Source: an uncultured Acholeplasmatales bacterium (lineage in GTDB: Bacteria; Bacillota_I; Bacilli_A; Acholeplasmatales; Anaeroplasmataceae). From it: DNA of 64,000 bases. Each line of letters opens with the position of its first letter. The stretch's first letter is position 1. Below, piece after piece: positions 19,080-44,533 of the stretch. The stretch lies in contig CALUXR010000006.1 in assembly GCA_944324795.1 (NCBI GenBank), forward strand, positions 1 through 64,000, written 5' to 3'. Both the position numbers and the translations under genes were made by a program. The notes under the pieces were generated by a model. The model had not been told where the DNA came from and did no database searches. It saw nothing but the letters and a program-made list of their open reading frames with translations.

Positions 19080-21670
19080 TAATTTAATTCCTCTAAATGC
19101 TTTAAGATAGCTTCATATTGCATTTTATAATTATTAAGTTTTTCTTTTTCAGCATTAATTTTAATTTCAGGGGCTTTATTTAAGAAATTAGGATTATTTA
19201 ACATATTATTAGATCTATTTAATTCTTTTTCAAGCCTTTCTTTTTCTTTAATTAAATTAGCTTTTACTTGTTCTAAATCTATTAAATCAGATTGCGGAAT
19301 ATAATATATTAAATCATTTAATACAACTACTACATTATCTTTAGCTTCAATTTCATTAGCTAAATAAGTTAGAGTTTTAGCTCTAGTAAAATGAAGAATA
19401 TAAGATTCTAAATCCATAAAGTTATCTAACATATTTTTATCTTTTAAATAAATTGCTAAATTAATTTCTGTATGTAGAGGTTTATTAGCTTCTGTTTTTT
19501 GATTACGAATACTAGTAATTAAATTAATTAAGCTATCAATTGACTTTATAGAATCTTTAAAATCTAAATCTTTATTATATGTAGGCCATTTAGAAATAGT
19601 TATACTTTCTTCTTCATGAGGTAATAATTGATATATTTCTTCAGTAATAAAAGGAATCATTGGGTGTAATAATTTACAAATATTTAATAAAACATAATTT
19701 AAGGTACCTCTTACTCCTTCTTTAATTGCTTCATCGTTACCATTTAAATCAACTTTAGCAAGTTCAACATACCAAGACGCAAAATCATTCCAAACAAAAT
19801 TATATAATACTTTAGCACCTTCACTAAATTCATATTTATCAAAATAATTATCAACTTCTTTAATAACCATATTCAATTTAGTTAAAATATATTTTGAAGT
19901 TAAATTTAAATTTGTTAAACTACATTTCTTTCCTTCAGTGTTCATCATTACATAACGAGAAATATTCCAAATTTTATTTAAATAATTCCAACTTGATTGA
20001 ACTTTAGTTTCATCATAACGAAGATCAAGACCTGGGGCACTATTTGTATTTAAAAAATAACGAAGAGCATCACAACCATATTTTTTAATAACATCGAAAG
20101 GATCAACTCCATTGCCAAGTGATTTAGACATCTTACGACCAAGATTATCTCTAATTAAACCGTGTATTAAAATATCTTTAAATGGGGCAGAACCTGTAAA
20201 TTCAATACCTTCAAATAACATTCTAGAAACCCAGAAGAAAATAATATCATACCCAGTAACTAATAAATTTGTTGGATAATAACGTTTATATGTTTCTGTT
20301 TCTTTTGGCCAACCCATAGTCGCAAATGGCCATAAAGCACTACTAAACCATGTATCTAAAACATCTTCATCTTGAACATAACCATCACCAGGACATTCTA
20401 CTTGAACTTTTACTTCATCGCCCTTATACCATGCAGGAATTCGGTGTCCCCACCATAATTGACGACTAATACACCAATCTTGAATATCATTTAACCATCT
20501 TACAAGTACTTGTTTATAGCGTTCTGGGATGAAACGATATTCTTTATTTTCTAAAACTTGTTTAGCTAAAACATCCATTTTAACAAACCATTGTTTAGAT
20601 AAACGTGGTTCAACTGCTACCCCTGTTCTTTCACTATGACCAACACTATGAACAATTTCTTCAATATGATCAAGTAATCCTTGTGAATCTAAATCTTTTA
20701 ATAATTCTTCTCTACATTTAAAACGATCCATTCCTTCATATTTATGAGCCATTTCATTCATTGTGCCATCATCATTCATACAAAGTGGCATAGCTAAATG
20801 ATGTCTTTTACCAACTTCAAAATCGTTCGGGTCATGGGCAGGTGTTACTTTTACAATACCACTACCAAATTCTTTATCAACATAACTATCACTAATTACC
20901 GGAATTTTAACATTTGTAGTAGGGATATATACTTCTTTACCAATTAAATTAATATATCTTTCATCAGTAGGATTAACCATTAAAGCTTGGTCAGCAAACA
21001 TGGTCTCTGGTCTAGTAGTCGCAATTAACAATTTGTCTTTACCATCAACTGTTGGATAATAAATATAATATAATGCCCCTTTATCATCTTGATGTACTAC
21101 TTCAATATTAGATAGGGCAGTTTTAGCTTCAGGGTCCCAATTTATAATTCTTTCACCTTGATAAATATAACCTTTATTATATAAAGATATGAAAACATAA
21201 TTTACAGCTTCTTTCATACCATCATCTAAAGTAAATCTTTCTTTAGTATAATCTAAAGATAGGCCTAAGCCTTTCCATTGATTCTTAATAAATGAAGCAT
21301 ATTCATCTTTCCAAGCCCAAGCTTCTTTCATAAATGCATCACGACCAATATCAAAACGAGAAACACCTTTTTCTTCTTTTAATTTAGCATCTATTTTCGC
21401 TTGTGTTGCAATACCAGCATGATCCATTCCTGGCAACCACAAAGTATCATAACCTTGCATTCTTTTTCTTCTTACAACCATATCAGCTATCGTAGTATCC
21501 CAAGCATGGCCAATATGCAATTTACCAGTTACATTTGGTGGTGGTAATACGATTGAAAATGGTTGTTTAGAATTATCACCAGCTGTAAAAAATCCTTCAT
21601 TAACCCACCAATCATATTTTCCTTCCTCAACAACATTGTGATCATAAATTTTATCTAATATTTTAGCCAT
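19079..21670 (-). CDS. valS: Valyl-tRNA synthetase
   Basis: A full-length 863-residue class I synthetase that charges tRNA-Val. HIGH is at 52-55 (PPPNVTGKLHIGHA) and KMSKS at 513-517. The editing CP1 domain (about 200-345) contains TTRPETMFADQA and GSGIVKVTPAHDPNDFEVG. The anticodon-binding domain and the C-terminal coiled coil (about 795-863) are present. It starts within the GNAT stop (TAATG) and ends in the folC start, so the three genes are strictly coupled. The Val T-box at 22225-22434 controls the operon. Confidence 0.97.
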   Translation of the reverse strand: MAKILDKIYDHNVVEEGKYDWWVNEGFFTAGDNSKQPFSIVLPPPNVTGKLHIGHAWDTTIADMVVRRKRMQGYDTLWLPGMDHAGIATQAKIDAKLKEEKGVSRFDIGRDAFMKEAWAWKDEYASFIKNQWKGLGLSLDYTKERFTLDDGMKEAVNYVFISLYNKGYIYQGERIINWDPEAKTALSNIEVVHQDDKGALYYIYYPTVDGKDKLLIATTRPETMFADQALMVNPTDERYINLIGKEVYIPTTNVKIPVISDSYVDKEFGSGIVKVTPAHDPNDFEVGKRHHLAMPLCMNDDGTMNEMAHKYEGMDRFKCREELLKDLDSQGLLDHIEEIVHSVGHSERTGVAVEPRLSKQWFVKMDVLAKQVLENKEYRFIPERYKQVLVRWLNDIQDWCISRQLWWGHRIPAWYKGDEVKVQVECPGDGYVQDEDVLDTWFSSALWPFATMGWPKETETYKRYYPTNLLVTGYDIIFFWVSRMLFEGIEFTGSAPFKDILIHGLIRDNLGRKMSKSLGNGVDPFDVIKKYGCDALRYFLNTNSAPGLDLRYDETKVQSSWNYLNKIWNISRYVMMNTEGKKCSLTNLNLTSKYILTKLNMVIKEVDNYFDKYEFSEGAKVLYNFVWNDFASWYVELAKVDLNGNDEAIKEGVRGTLNYVLLNICKLLHPMIPFITEEIYQLLPHEEESITISKWPTYNKDLDFKDSIKSIDSLINLITSIRNQKTEANKPLHTEINLAIYLKDKNMLDNFMDLESYILHFTRAKTLTYLANEIEAKDNVVVVLNDLIYYIPQSDLIDLEQVKANLIKEKERLEKELNRSNNMLNNPNFLNKAPEIKINAEKEKLNNYKMQYEAILKHLEELN

Positions 21671-22203
21671 TATTCCATCTCCTTATATTTTTCTTTATCT
21701 AAACTATATAATGCAATATCATAAATGATATCTTCATAATTTTTATCATATTTTTTAATAATTCCATCTAAATTAAATCCAAGGTTTGTTATCATATTTC
21801 TACTTCTAAGATTATTTACTAAACTAGTCATTTCAACTAATTCAGCTTTTTTAGATTTAAAACAAATTTTTAATAAAGCCTTTATAGCCTCACTACCAAG
21901 ACCATATCCCCAATATTCTTTAGCTAAACTAATACCTAAAGTATAAACATTTTTCAATCTTCTAATACTTTTTTTATAAATATTACAAGTACCAATAAAT
22001 TTATTATTGCTTTTTAATATAATAGCATAAGTATCACCAGCATATGTCATGCCAACTACTAACCTACAGGCAAGATCATAATCTTTAACAGGTTTAAAAC
22101 CAGCCATTTTCGCAACATCTTCATCACTTGCATATTCATAATAGGCTCTAGCATCATCATATTTAATTTCTCTAATAATTAATCTTGACGTATAAAATGC
22201 CAT
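21670..22203 (-). CDS. GNAT family N-acetyltransferase
   Basis: A 177-residue acetyltransferase of the RimJ/RimL type. It opens FYTSRLIIREIKYDDARAYYEY and has a conserved acetyl-CoA loop region (LGISLAKEYWGYGLGSEAIKALL) and a C-terminal TNLGFNLDGIIKK strand, as in enzymes that acetylate protein or small-molecule amines. The substrate is unknown. The start at 22203 is preceded by AAAGGTGGTGA; the longer open frame back to 22272 runs into the T-box terminator and antiterminator and is an artefact. It sits between the T-box and valS with 1-nt overlap to valS, so its expression follows Val-tRNA charging. Confidence 0.9.
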   Translation of the reverse strand: MAFYTSRLIIREIKYDDARAYYEYASDEDVAKMAGFKPVKDYDLACRLVVGMTYAGDTYAIILKSNNKFIGTCNIYKKSIRRLKNVYTLGISLAKEYWGYGLGSEAIKALLKICFKSKKAELVEMTSLVNNLRSRNMITNLGFNLDGIIKKYDKNYEDIIYDIALYSLDKEKYKEME

Positions 22204-22224
22204 AAATTCACCACCTTTAGGCAA

Positions 22225-22434
22225 ATAAAAAGTCCTTAGAAATAATCTAAGGACGAAAAACCGCGGTACCACCTTAATTCTAGTAAACTAGCACTCATTA
22301 TTCTTTAACGCAGAACTACGGTTTAGCTACTCAATTCACATAAACAATTAAAAGACTACCTTCAAAATATTTTACTTGATATTTTCACCAACCATATCAT
22401 CTCTAAAAGCTAAAATATTTCTACTCTTCTTTTC
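22225..22434 (-). ncRNA. T-box riboswitch, Val-specific
   Basis: On the minus strand the T-box sequence AGGTGGTACCGCGG is at 22274-22261. It is followed by a terminator hairpin, GTCCTTAGA with TCTAAGGAC (22232-22254), and a T-run. Upstream lies stem I: AAAAGA pairs with TCTTTT, then an AGTA/GAA loop-E-like internal loop, then AAATATTTT paired with AAAATATTT. The specifier loop reads GAAGGTAGT, giving GTA (Val) followed by a purine. Uncharged tRNA-Val(UAC) would favour antitermination and expression of the GNAT, valS and folC genes. The codon match to valS supports the reading. Confidence 0.93.
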
Positions 22435-22440
22435 TTTAGA

Positions 22441-22469
22441 ATGATAGCACAAAAGCTATTTAAAGTAAA
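22441..22469 (-). promoter_or_regulatory. Promoter of the T-box operon
   Basis: On the minus strand TTTACT (22469-22464) and TATCAT (22446-22441) are 17 bp apart, placing the transcript start just before stem I of the T-box. Confidence 0.6.
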
Positions 22470-22487
22470 GAAAATTTTAAAACCTTA

Positions 22488-24650
22488 TTAATTATAACTT
22501 CCTTGAATAATTTCAACCGAACCTATATATTTTTCAGCATTTTTACCATCTATTCCGTCTCTAGCGCTATTTAAAGAGCCAAAAATAGGATCAATTAAAT
22601 CACCACGTAGGCCTTTAAAACCACCATCACCTCCATATATATTTATACTGCTTGTTATATCATCTAAAATAATATAGCAATTGTTACATTTTATAGCTTC
22701 AGCACCGTTTCCACCATTGCCGCCATCACCACCATTATTTATAGCATCGCCGCCATCACCACCATGACCACCATCGCCACCATTTATTGTACTATTATCA
22801 CCAAAAATGAATAATTGTGATGAAAAAACAGCTACATTCCCATTTTCACCATCAGACCCAGGTTCTCCTTCTTTTAATCCTGAGCCTTCGCTACCACTAA
22901 TACCATTTTGACCTCTTTTACCTATTATTTCTGAATTTTTTAGATTAAGCAATAGAATTGGATCACTTGCTAAATTGCTTCCAACACCATCATTTAAAGA
23001 GATAGTCGGTTTATTAATAGCGCCATGAATTTCAATATTATTTAGATCTAATATTAAATTATTTCTTCTTGATGGGGCTGAAATATTTAGATAATAAGTT
23101 TTTTTAGTTTCCTCTTTATTTATTATAGAAACATGAAGAACGTCAGCACCTATTCTTAATTCATTAATATTCTCTAATAAACTAGCATCTATTTCAATAT
23201 ACTGATGACCAGTCAAATTAATTGTAGGTTCAGTTAAAATATATTTATCTTCAGCTAAGAAATTTAATTTATTTGATAAAACTTTATTACCATCATCTAT
23301 TATCGCCTCTATTTTAATTTCTTTATCAATAAACTCACGATAATCGCCTAAATATAAATAATTATTGTTAGTAGAATTATATATAATACCATCGACTAAA
23401 ATATTATATTTAGTAACATTTTCTTGCTTATTCCAAACAATAATTTCATTTAGATATGAAACATCAAAAGAACCTTGACCTTCAATTGATAAGCCTGGCA
23501 TAATGCCATCTATTCTAGATAAATATTGTAATTTAGAACTTGAATTATATAATCCACCATCTAAACCATTTTTACCTTTATTTCCGATCGTTATACCTTC
23601 AGTAGAACCTTTTCCTCCTGTTCCACCTTCACCATAACTTCCACTATATTCTTTATATTGAGCATTAAAACAAAAAACATTAGAACCATTAAAGACGTAA
23701 CCACCATTACCGCCGTTGCCACCATCACCACCATGCATAATGCCAACGCCTCTACCACCATCACCACCATTACCACCATCTCCGGTGATAAAACTTGGAT
23801 CTTTCTCAGTAAATAAATACATATTAGGAATGGCGAAGATACCACCACCATCACCACCATTACCACCTTTTTCACCTTCAACAGCACCAATTTCTGATGA
23901 GCTCCTACCATCTGAACCATTTGAACCACTTTTAGTGTTTGAATAAGTATTATTTCCATAATTAATTAAATTAAATTGAAAATCAGATTCTCCAACGTAT
24001 TCAAACATATAACTATCATATACTGACATATTACAATTATTTAAAACAATAGTTAACGGCTTTGTTCTTTCAGCGATTTCAATCTTAAAATTATTTAAAG
24101 TTAAATCTGGCTTACTAACAATTGTTAGTCTATCTAATGACGAACTAATATTTAAATCATTTATTAATGAAAAACTACTGTTTTCAACTTCACTAAAATC
24201 TAATTTTAAAGCATTGTTTTTTAATGACCCTAAATTTGAATTATCCCCTTTTAATAAAGACTCTAATTCAGAAATATCACTAATAGTCGCTTCTCTTAAG
24301 CTTGTTATATTAAACTCTAATGAATTTGATTTATATATTTTTTCTTCAAATATACTTTCAACATAAACATTATGATTACCGATACTCAAATTATCTAATA
24401 TATAATATTCATGTCCTGTACTACCTAATTCATTATCATCAAGATAAACTTTATAATTATCACCATCTTTATCGCTATTCCAGACCAATATATCAGTTGA
24501 AATTAAAGTTAAATTAGCTGTATCCCATTTCTTATTGTTTTGATGAAATAAATCATCAACAATTCCTTTATTAATTAAATATTTATAGCCAAAATAACCA
24601 CCAACTCCAACAATAGCTAAAATTAATAAAATAATTATTATCTTTTTCAT
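22488..24650 (-). CDS. Membrane-anchored surface protein with two FN3-like/glycine-rich modules
   Basis: A 720-residue protein with one N-terminal membrane helix (about 3-22) and a large extracellular part. Two similar modules follow each other. Module A has a fibronectin-III-like strand region (about 45-115, with VWNS), a beta-rich region (118-235) and a glycine-rich block (about 241-366, many GGDGGNGG units). Module B repeats this order at about 398-466 (VWNK), 468-575 and 578-705. The Gly-Asn-Asp repeats resemble PGRS-like or right-handed glycine-rich folds more than collagen, because Gly is not strictly every third residue. There is no LPXTG motif; anchoring is by the N-terminal helix. 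GGAGGAAG precedes the ATG, and a promoter lies at 24693-24721. Adhesion or surface layer is an inference; no enzymatic motif is seen. Confidence 0.75.
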   Translation of the reverse strand: MKKIIIILLILAIVGVGGYFGYKYLINKGIVDDLFHQNNKKWDTANLTLISTDILVWNSDKDGDNYKVYLDDNELGSTGHEYYILDNLSIGNHNVYVESIFEEKIYKSNSLEFNITSLREATISDISELESLLKGDNSNLGSLKNNALKLDFSEVENSSFSLINDLNISSSLDRLTIVSKPDLTLNNFKIEIAERTKPLTIVLNNCNMSVYDSYMFEYVGESDFQFNLINYGNNTYSNTKSGSNGSDGRSSSEIGAVEGEKGGNGGDGGGIFAIPNMYLFTEKDPSFITGDGGNGGDGGRGVGIMHGGDGGNGGNGGYVFNGSNVFCFNAQYKEYSGSYGEGGTGGKGSTEGITIGNKGKNGLDGGLYNSSSKLQYLSRIDGIMPGLSIEGQGSFDVSYLNEIIVWNKQENVTKYNILVDGIIYNSTNNNYLYLGDYREFIDKEIKIEAIIDDGNKVLSNKLNFLAEDKYILTEPTINLTGHQYIEIDASLLENINELRIGADVLHVSIINKEETKKTYYLNISAPSRRNNLILDLNNIEIHGAINKPTISLNDGVGSNLASDPILLLNLKNSEIIGKRGQNGISGSEGSGLKEGEPGSDGENGNVAVFSSQLFIFGDNSTINGGDGGHGGDGGDAINNGGDGGNGGNGAEAIKCNNCYIILDDITSSINIYGGDGGFKGLRGDLIDPIFGSLNSARDGIDGKNAEKYIGSVEIIQGSYN

Positions 24651-24692
24651 ACTTCCTCCATTTTATAATAAATATTAAAAAACCTTTACTAG

Positions 24693-24721
24693 ATTTTAGC
24701 ATATAAGAATTTTTTAAGCAA
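24693..24721 (-). promoter_or_regulatory. Probable promoter of the glycine-rich surface gene
   Basis: On the minus strand TTGCTT (24721-24716) and TAAAAT (24698-24693) are 17 bp apart, upstream of the GGAGG box. Confidence 0.55.
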
Positions 24722-24744
24722 CATCTACTAAAGGAAAATAAATA

Positions 24745-25553
24745 TTAATTTATATTAGCATAGTATCCATCATCATGATCTAAACCATCTACAATCGTAA
24801 CTTTAGCATTATATGTGTTAGGTATAACTAATATTTCAATTGGTTTCATTAAATTAAAACCTGTGTAAAAATACTTATTTATTAAGCAATCATCATCCAT
24901 AATAATTAACATTATCAGCATGTGTTTCATAAGTTGTATTAATAGCAAATATGTATTCTTTGCCATAATATACATATTTTCCTTCAGCAAAAAAAATTCT
25001 TTTGGAATAATATTAACTATAGGATCTTCATATCTTGTATCAGTAACTACACTATATTTAGTTGGCTCATATCCATCTAAATACCCATCTGATGATGTCA
25101 TTTGCTCTAATGTATAAGGATTAATATAAAGCGTTGAACTTCTTTTAATACTTATTGTATTAGCTTTCCTTAATTCATAATATTTATCTCTTATTAAATA
25201 ATAATCTAAATAATTATCGTTTTCTTTATTAATCTTATTACATAAACACATATCGATAATATATCTACCCTTAAAGTAAGTATCTCTTCATTATTATAAC
25301 CCGTAAAATAATAATAAGTATCATCAGCTGAATCAAAAAATAATTTAATATCTCCCATAATTATTAAATATTCTTGACTATTACCGTTATCATTAATTAA
25401 AGTAATATAATTTTCTTCTTTTAATTTATAACTATTATCACCGTAATATAAAGTATTATTATCATAACTTAAATTAAATGTTTGATAATTAAAACTCATT
25501 AAAATAAAACTCATAATAACAAATAAACATAGTAAAAAACTTTTCTTTAACAT
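24745..25553 (-). pseudogene. Decayed partial copy of the secreted protein gene at 55173-57425
   Basis: The first ~100 codons (signal peptide MLKKSFLLCLF onward) are nearly identical to the intact gene. A 16-bp deletion between CTAC repeats (near 25266) shifts the frame; the following stretch (MCLCNKINKENDNYLDYYL... to IIPKE) is then open in another frame. A 1-nt loss in an A-run (near 24990) shifts it again. Homology stops at 24898, after which an unrelated ~50-codon tail ends at 24745. The upstream region (25554-25694) is also homologous to 57426-57693, apart from a ~125-bp absence. It cannot make the full protein; a short secreted peptide of about 115 residues is possible. Confidence 0.88.
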
Positions 25554-25694
25554 TATTTTTTCCTCCCTTCAGTTTATTTTACTAATACTTTTGTCTAAAT
25601 ATTTAATTATACGAATTAAGTTGCCTCTTCTCTAATCTTTTTCAATAGCACCCTTTATTTAATTTAATTATATGCTTATGTAAGCGCTTTTGCA
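24898..25694. repeat. Segmental duplication, copy 1 (partner 56753-57693)
   Basis: The two segments are in the same orientation, about 32 kb apart, and align nearly base for base with scattered changes. This copy lacks 16 bp within the coding part, 1 bp in an A-run and about 125 bp upstream of the start. The upstream part, 25621-25694, has no gene and holds a cre-like TGTAAGCGCTTTTGCA at 25679-25694. Confidence 0.88.
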
Positions 25695-25746
25695 ATAGAT
25701 TTAAAAATAATATTAAAGTGTCGATATTTATATTTAATTATATAAA

Positions 25747-25779
25747 CAAAAAAATCCCTACTAATTTTTATAGTAGAGA
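25747..25779 (-). terminator. Terminator of the ABC exporter operon
   Basis: On the minus strand TCTCTACTA (25779-25771) pairs with TAGTAGGGA (25763-25755) around a 7-nt loop, followed by a T-run. Confidence 0.8.
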
Positions 25780-25788
25780 TTAAACAAA

Positions 25789-44435: not shown

Positions 44436-44520
44436 AAAAAAATAGTCTTTCTACAGCAAGGCGTAAAAAGACTAGTATTATCATAATATCTAATTTACTT
44501 GTTAGCCTCTCTGGACTATC
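44436..44520 (-). promoter_or_regulatory. PyrR-dependent attenuator of the pyr operon
   Basis: On the minus strand 44517-44504 reads AGTCCAGAGAGGCT, the classic PyrR-binding loop sequence. Downstream a terminator hairpin (44473-44444; AGTCTTTTTACGC with CTGTAGAAAGACT, G-T pairs included) runs into seven T. With UMP/UTP bound, PyrR stabilises the anti-antiterminator and the terminator forms. pyrR itself is not in the window. Confidence 0.93.
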
Positions 44521-44533
44521 TTAAAGTCATTTA

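Follow-up and report, generated by a model that had tools for sequence, protein, structure and literature searches.

Introduction

Rigid polyglycine II (PGII) bundles are rare among solved structures, and the few cases are unrelated to each other: Obg, the springtail antifreeze protein, phage fibre tips, ALK and, as a prediction, PGRS. A beta-helix and a PGII sandwich make up the phage adhesin gp38 together with its receptor loops (PMC12892980, PMC6851490); Pam3 gp24 has a TNF-like domain with Gly loops (PMC9608196). Six Gly-rich helices are present in Obg as well as in the snow-flea antifreeze protein (PMC8409303), small PGRS sandwiches hold 5-6 helices of 3-4 triplets (PMC9436101), and the GGX motif is the described pattern of Gly-rich polyproline II (PPII)/PGII bundles (PMC13243192). 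Here we analyse a gene for a 720-aa protein, located on the reverse strand of a 64,000-nucleotide stretch of an uncultured Acholeplasmatales bacterium (assembly GCA_944324795.1, contig CALUXR010000006.1, positions 1 to 64,000; hereafter the window). Its product repeats, twice behind an N-terminal anchor, the same layout of FN3-like domain, beta region and Gly block. Structure models and an analogy to phage fibre tips make it reasonably probable, if by no means certain, that this is an accessory, N-terminally membrane-anchored surface binding protein (adhesin), whose PGII stems present variable tips.

Results and discussion

The 720-aa frame begins MKKIIIILLILAIVGVGGYFGYKYL. Its parts are given below with window coordinates, all on the minus strand; the limits of the six predicted hairpins follow from the triplet pattern and the AlphaFold2 models.

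22488..24650 (-) gene, 720 aa, predicted two-module membrane-anchored Gly-hairpin protein (single open reading frame)
24567..24650 (-) putative N-terminal hydrophobic signal anchor, residues 1-28 (from sequence)
24297..24524 (-) FN3-like domain 1, residues 43-118 (AlphaFold2 model; Foldseek FN3 matches at probability 1.00)
23937..24296 (-) beta region 1, residues 119-238, with ERTKPLTIVL motif (AlphaFold2 model; alignment)
23826..23936 (-) Gly hairpin 1.1, residues 239-275
23682..23786 (-) Gly hairpin 1.2, residues 289-323, GDGGNGGDGGRG / GGDGGNGGNGGY
23544..23645 (-) Gly hairpin 1.3, residues 336-369
23226..23501 (-) FN3-like domain 2, residues 384-475 (AlphaFold2 model; Foldseek 1k85, 3pe9, 2vtf)
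22923..23225 (-) beta region 2, residues 476-576, with SRRNNLILDL motif (AlphaFold2 model; alignment)
22818..22922 (-) Gly hairpin 2.1, residues 577-611
22695..22781 (-) Gly hairpin 2.2, residues 624-652, GGDGGHGGDGGD / GGDGGNGGNGAE (stem length invariant, 14 members)
22530..22634 (-) Gly hairpin 2.3, residues 673-707

The initial annotation, made from the sequence alone, had proposed two consecutive modules behind a single N-terminal anchor, and comparison of the two modules bears this out. Their non-Gly parts are homologous, with a Smith-Waterman score of 94 against 46 +/- 8 for shuffled sequences (0/500 as high). The FN3 parts alone reach 66 against 32 +/- 6 (0/500), and the beta regions show a weaker signal of 53 against 34 +/- 6, a value matched by 5/500 shuffles. 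The duplication is old: the identity between modules (~25%) does not exceed that to a paralog in the same genome (27-28%). As the anchor consists of a charged stretch followed by a hydrophobic one, and as inspection of the protein found neither a lipobox Cys nor an LPXTG at the C end, the topology is most simply read as membrane-anchored, N-in and C-out.

The Gly blocks cover about residues 239-369 in module 1 and 577-707 in module 2. Gly autocorrelation at lag 3 is 2.0 and 2.55 for the two modules, and 1.5 and 1.8 at lag 6, while lags 1 and 2 stay at ~1. Each module has ~6 runs of 3-5 Gly-x-x triplets, arranged in three pairs that correspond to three hairpins, with beta-strand stretches of ~12-20 residues between the pairs. 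Both Gly-rich blocks that had been described earlier are thus present, but neither is one continuous Gly-Asp-Asn block. Most GGX triplets have Asp or Asn as their non-Gly residue (8 GGD, 6 GGN). Judged by sequence, the triplet pattern of both modules is that described for Gly-rich PPII/PGII bundles.

AlphaFold2 gave a pLDDT (predicted local distance difference test) of 83.9 and a pTM (predicted template modelling score) of 0.77 for module 1 (333 aa), and of 83.3 and 0.72 for module 2 (337 aa). The order of elements is identical in both models: FN3 strands, the beta region, and then strands alternating with three Gly blocks, which have no helix or strand assignment except for isolated bridge residues. 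Within the Gly blocks most ten-residue pLDDT means fall in the range 83-98, and each module has a single stretch below it (75 in module 1, 69 in module 2). The fold of the modules is well predicted by these models, and the Gly blocks are best read as PGII hairpins on stacked beta-rungs; the PGII torsions and the packing of the hairpins we infer. In Foldseek searches both modules matched several FN3 domains at probability 1.00, in agreement with the FN3-like domains first seen in the sequence, despite which Pfam fn3 is not matched at sequence level. Among the viral models the best match was A0A5Q2W5W6, an unnamed 277-aa protein (E 3.6e-7, TM 0.34).

The models and the Gly spacing also bear on two other explanations of the triplets. 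An RTX-like calcium-binding beta-roll, folding after secretion, would agree with the frequent GGD and the acidity of the block, RTX repeats being likewise rich in Gly and Asp. However, RTX repeats have a period of 9 with a hydrophobic residue, whereas the Gly period here is 3; the single strict GGxGxDxUx match is at chance level, no RTX Pfam family is matched, and AlphaFold2 shows extended non-strand segments at high confidence. We regard an RTX-like roll as highly improbable, and the same observations speak against the calcium binding once suggested for the repeats. Trimerisation through Gly-X-Y runs, as in a collagen-like segment, has in its favour one weak Pfam Collagen match on hairpin 2.1 (E 0.01). 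This match scores 16.1 bits against a gathering score of 27.2, the runs comprise only 3-5 triplets of GGX and not G-P-X type, and a beta-strand interrupts them after every two runs; to a collagen-like trimer we give practically no credence.

Support for PGII hairpins with a fixed stem comes from the comparison of family members. In 14/14 aligned members each arm of hairpin 2 measures exactly 11 residues, while its tip has a length of 6-20 residues; the other two tips, 1 and 3, are variable as well among the 14 members, and tip 3 is aromatic-rich in several relatives. Such fixed arms and varying loops fit a rigid stem with variable tips. The expectation that slippage-prone repeat DNA would make the Gly repeats vary in length is not supported: it is the loops that vary and not the stems, the longest perfect period-9 tract measures 18 bp in the gene and 19 bp in the window as a whole, and Tandem Repeats Finder reports arrays of only 3-4 copies with 70-83% match.

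Stem and tip lengths are equally relevant to the question whether the Gly blocks bind anything at all. They might be a purely structural spacer, either flexible low-complexity linkers or stiff rods that keep the FN3 domains off the membrane, and without ligand binding. Tandem modules, FN3 spacers and an N-terminal anchor would suit such a stalk, and Pfam-type family searches found no known binding motif. In contrast, fixed stem lengths, interleaved beta-rungs and high predicted confidence indicate blocks that are not flexible, relatives carry the domain C-terminally behind leucine-rich repeats or other scaffolds, which is a tip position, and nothing lies beyond module 2. Nor do the models predict the stiff rod of the initial annotation, but short (~4-triplet) antiparallel hairpins on beta-rungs, rigid but compact. 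A mere spacer role therefore seems unlikely to us.

For a surface adhesin with PGII stems the parts could work together as follows. The anchor would hold the protein at the membrane and the FN3 domains would serve as spacers. Stacked beta-strands, forming beta-helix-like rungs, would fix the roots of three antiparallel PGII hairpins inserted between successive rungs, and inward Gly residues at every third position would allow tight helix packing, making each hairpin a rigid ~4-triplet stem. The loops at the far ends of the hairpins, variable in length and sequence, would be the likely ligand-binding surface, and two tandem modules may give more reach or avidity. Surface exposure and ligand binding of the protein are what we infer from this arrangement. 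The protein's mode of action would resemble that of the PGII-sandwich tip in phage gp38/Pam3 fibres, with exchangeable tips on a fixed Gly stem.

The predicted plan shares with gp38 of T-even-type phages (S16, PP01; PDB 6F45) and with Pam3 gp24 a beta scaffold (beta-helix or TNF-like), Gly-rich PGII hairpins and distal variable loops, which in the phages recognise receptors. In the phage proteins, however, a single lattice at the fibre tip holds 10 or 12 Gly motifs, whereas each of the two tandem modules here has six. Furthermore, gp38-type adhesins have N-terminal fibre-attachment helices, in place of which the membrane-anchored bacterial protein has an FN3 domain.

Other known systems share single elements. 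The N-terminal (Obg fold) domain of Obg likewise consists of Gly-rich PPII helices and beta-strands, with the six helices in two layers (PMC8409303). Searching PDB sequences with the domain-family profile returned Obg-type proteins as the best matches, weak (E 0.008-0.43) and aligned on the Gly hairpins, and Obg models matched in one family member only, below significance or cut-off. These matches are too weak for membership, and, in contrast to Obg, the protein has no GTPase domain, is predicted to be extracytoplasmic and has another beta scaffold. The pectate lyases PelI/Pel3, an FN3-like domain followed by a parallel beta-helix, were among the top Foldseek matches with low overall TM (~0.2), but are without Gly hairpins. 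The Pectate_lyase_5 adhesive domain (PF20585) matched in 1/13 members (E 0.0016), with module 2 giving no match. In ALK/LTK, too, a Gly-rich PPII bundle is found on the ectodomain, together with a TNF-like beta domain (PMC13243192, PMC10605310), but these are animal receptor tyrosine kinases, to which we found no relation of the protein.

Two further PGII systems suggest that the bundle might serve ice, surface or membrane association, after the manner of snow-flea antifreeze proteins or PE_PGRS sails, and not receptor binding. Module 1 indeed matches the springtail nine-PPII-helix antifreeze protein 7jjv structurally, at Foldseek rank 4 and weakly (E 5e-3, probability 0.87), and for PE_PGRS sandwiches a hydrophobic edge has been proposed as the part that rests on membranes (PMC9436101). 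But the non-Gly residue of GGX is mostly Asp or Asn here and not Ala/Thr, and the tips form no regular aromatic edge. The antifreeze proteins (3BOG, 7JJV) are moreover free-standing bundles with an ice-binding Ala face (PMC8409303), without beta-rungs or FN3. In the mycobacterial PE_PGRS proteins Gly triplets are likewise predicted to form cell-surface PGII sandwiches, with helices of 3-4 triplets (PMC9436101), yet the protein has a putative transmembrane anchor instead of a PE domain at its N-terminus, and short hairpins on beta-rungs with FN3 instead of long sails. Ice, surface or membrane association accordingly appears quite improbable.

Relatives of the domain

The Gly domain is not covered by any family in Pfam, NCBIfam or PHROGs. 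The architecture that was called unusual at first sight has remained so: the models of the two modules agree with each other and no curated family is matched. A DUF2846 match (E 0.007) lies far below the cut-off and was rejected as noise. The paralog in the same genome is a single-module lipoprotein with an LTAC lipobox (G000:C3:9913-10956, L002), and its existence shows a single module to be complete in itself. Its neighbourhood (L003, 3214-14004) is a surface-lipoprotein cluster including three related tandem lipoprotein genes, one of them apparently broken, and two proteins with GLUG-like repeats.

At a threshold of 1e-5, 8/160 whole genomes of the order contain a match, and none of the seven congeners does. 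In L007, L008, L035 and L036 the domain stands C-terminal to leucine-rich repeats (with Pfam matches to these repeats for L007), in L011, L039 and L052 it is part of lipoprotein-like proteins, and in L037 (1665-2385), from a genome of another family in the order, it follows a beta-rich N-terminal region without Pfam match. A DNA pattern scan gave many chance Gly-rich sites, to which a profile search was then applied; among these loci two uncultured Clostridia proteins, L087 and L116, match the domain profile, and the domain is probably present in Clostridia. The Arg of the 'xR..L.I.L' strand motif was invariant in the first 11 members and ceased to be so once the two Clostridia proteins were added. 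No relative was found in phage and plasmid records, and the 588 pattern matches in genome contigs gave no tblastn relative, where low-complexity filtering probably removes the query. The two modules had no resolved position in the tree of domains. Legionella/Legionellales proteins L120 and L139, which came from the same profile search as the Clostridia proteins, combine beta-helix-like coils with GGNGG hairpins and may be analogues, possibly an independent use of the same idea.

Several observations weigh against reading the protein as an adhesin of this kind or against the breadth of its family. The two modules were modelled separately by AlphaFold2 from shallow alignments (18 rows). Tip variability does not exceed that of the remaining sequence in two close pairs (69% and 84% identity), which thus give no sign of recent diversifying selection. 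When non-Gly residues were shuffled with Gly fixed, the observed profile score was reached in 2/500 trials for module 1, 4/500 for module 2 and 0/500 for the paralog, and masking of the Gly blocks leaves 13.8 bits for module 1 but only 4.6 for module 2. As the Gly pattern by itself accounts for much of the profile score, homology to the outside relatives is likely, but not overwhelmingly so. Finally, phage adhesins gave no sequence match (phage records, PHROGs), for which reason the likeness to fibre tips is to be taken as an analogy of mechanism and not as membership.

Tentatively, and with less confidence than its opposite would deserve, one may see in these proteins an undescribed, mobile class of bacterial domains, in which beta-rungs, PGII hairpins and exchangeable tips, mounted on interchangeable scaffolds (FN3, leucine-rich repeats, InlB-like, other beta-rich), serve surface proteins as their sensing end; the class would be a cellular counterpart of phage PGII receptor-binding tips. 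The fold element is already known; what would be new is an anchored bacterial protein with tandem FN3/beta-rung/PGII modules, and the use of several scaffolds. Neither this tandem arrangement nor the multi-scaffold use was found in the literature searched, which leaves out most subscription journals. The protein would represent a modular version of the PGII bundle in membrane-anchored proteins of an uncultured Bacillota lineage, a version that escapes Pfam, NCBIfam and PHROGs, perhaps through low complexity. If this is true, it would suggest folded binding tips in many bacterial surface proteins regarded as 'glycine-rich, probably disordered'.

Genomic context

Two features of the surroundings define the locus:

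22446..25788 (no strand) species-specific insert of ~3.3 kb, comprising the gene and apparently degraded open reading frames at 24745-25553; seven congeners lack it at this junction
22246..22445 (-) T-box leader of the downstream GNAT-valS genes, in the flank and outside the protein (RF00230)

In 7/7 congeners a GNAT gene, itself followed by valS, comes ~260-430 bp after an FtsX permease gene. This FtsX-GNAT space holds the T-box leader in the window genome, and an extra 3.3 kb is present there in this genome only. As the insert is absent at a conserved junction in all seven congeners, the gene is accessory. By its position upstream of the GNAT-valS T-box leader it would also lie outside T-box control. 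At 24745-25553 (-), two overlapping short open reading frames resemble one degraded (frameshifted) exported-protein gene and have no Pfam match. The listed GTG start of the GNAT gene (21670-22272, -) lies inside the T-box leader, and an ATG near 22203 is probably the true start. Elsewhere in the window, a PyrR binding site RNA (RF00515) is located at 44436-44531 (-).
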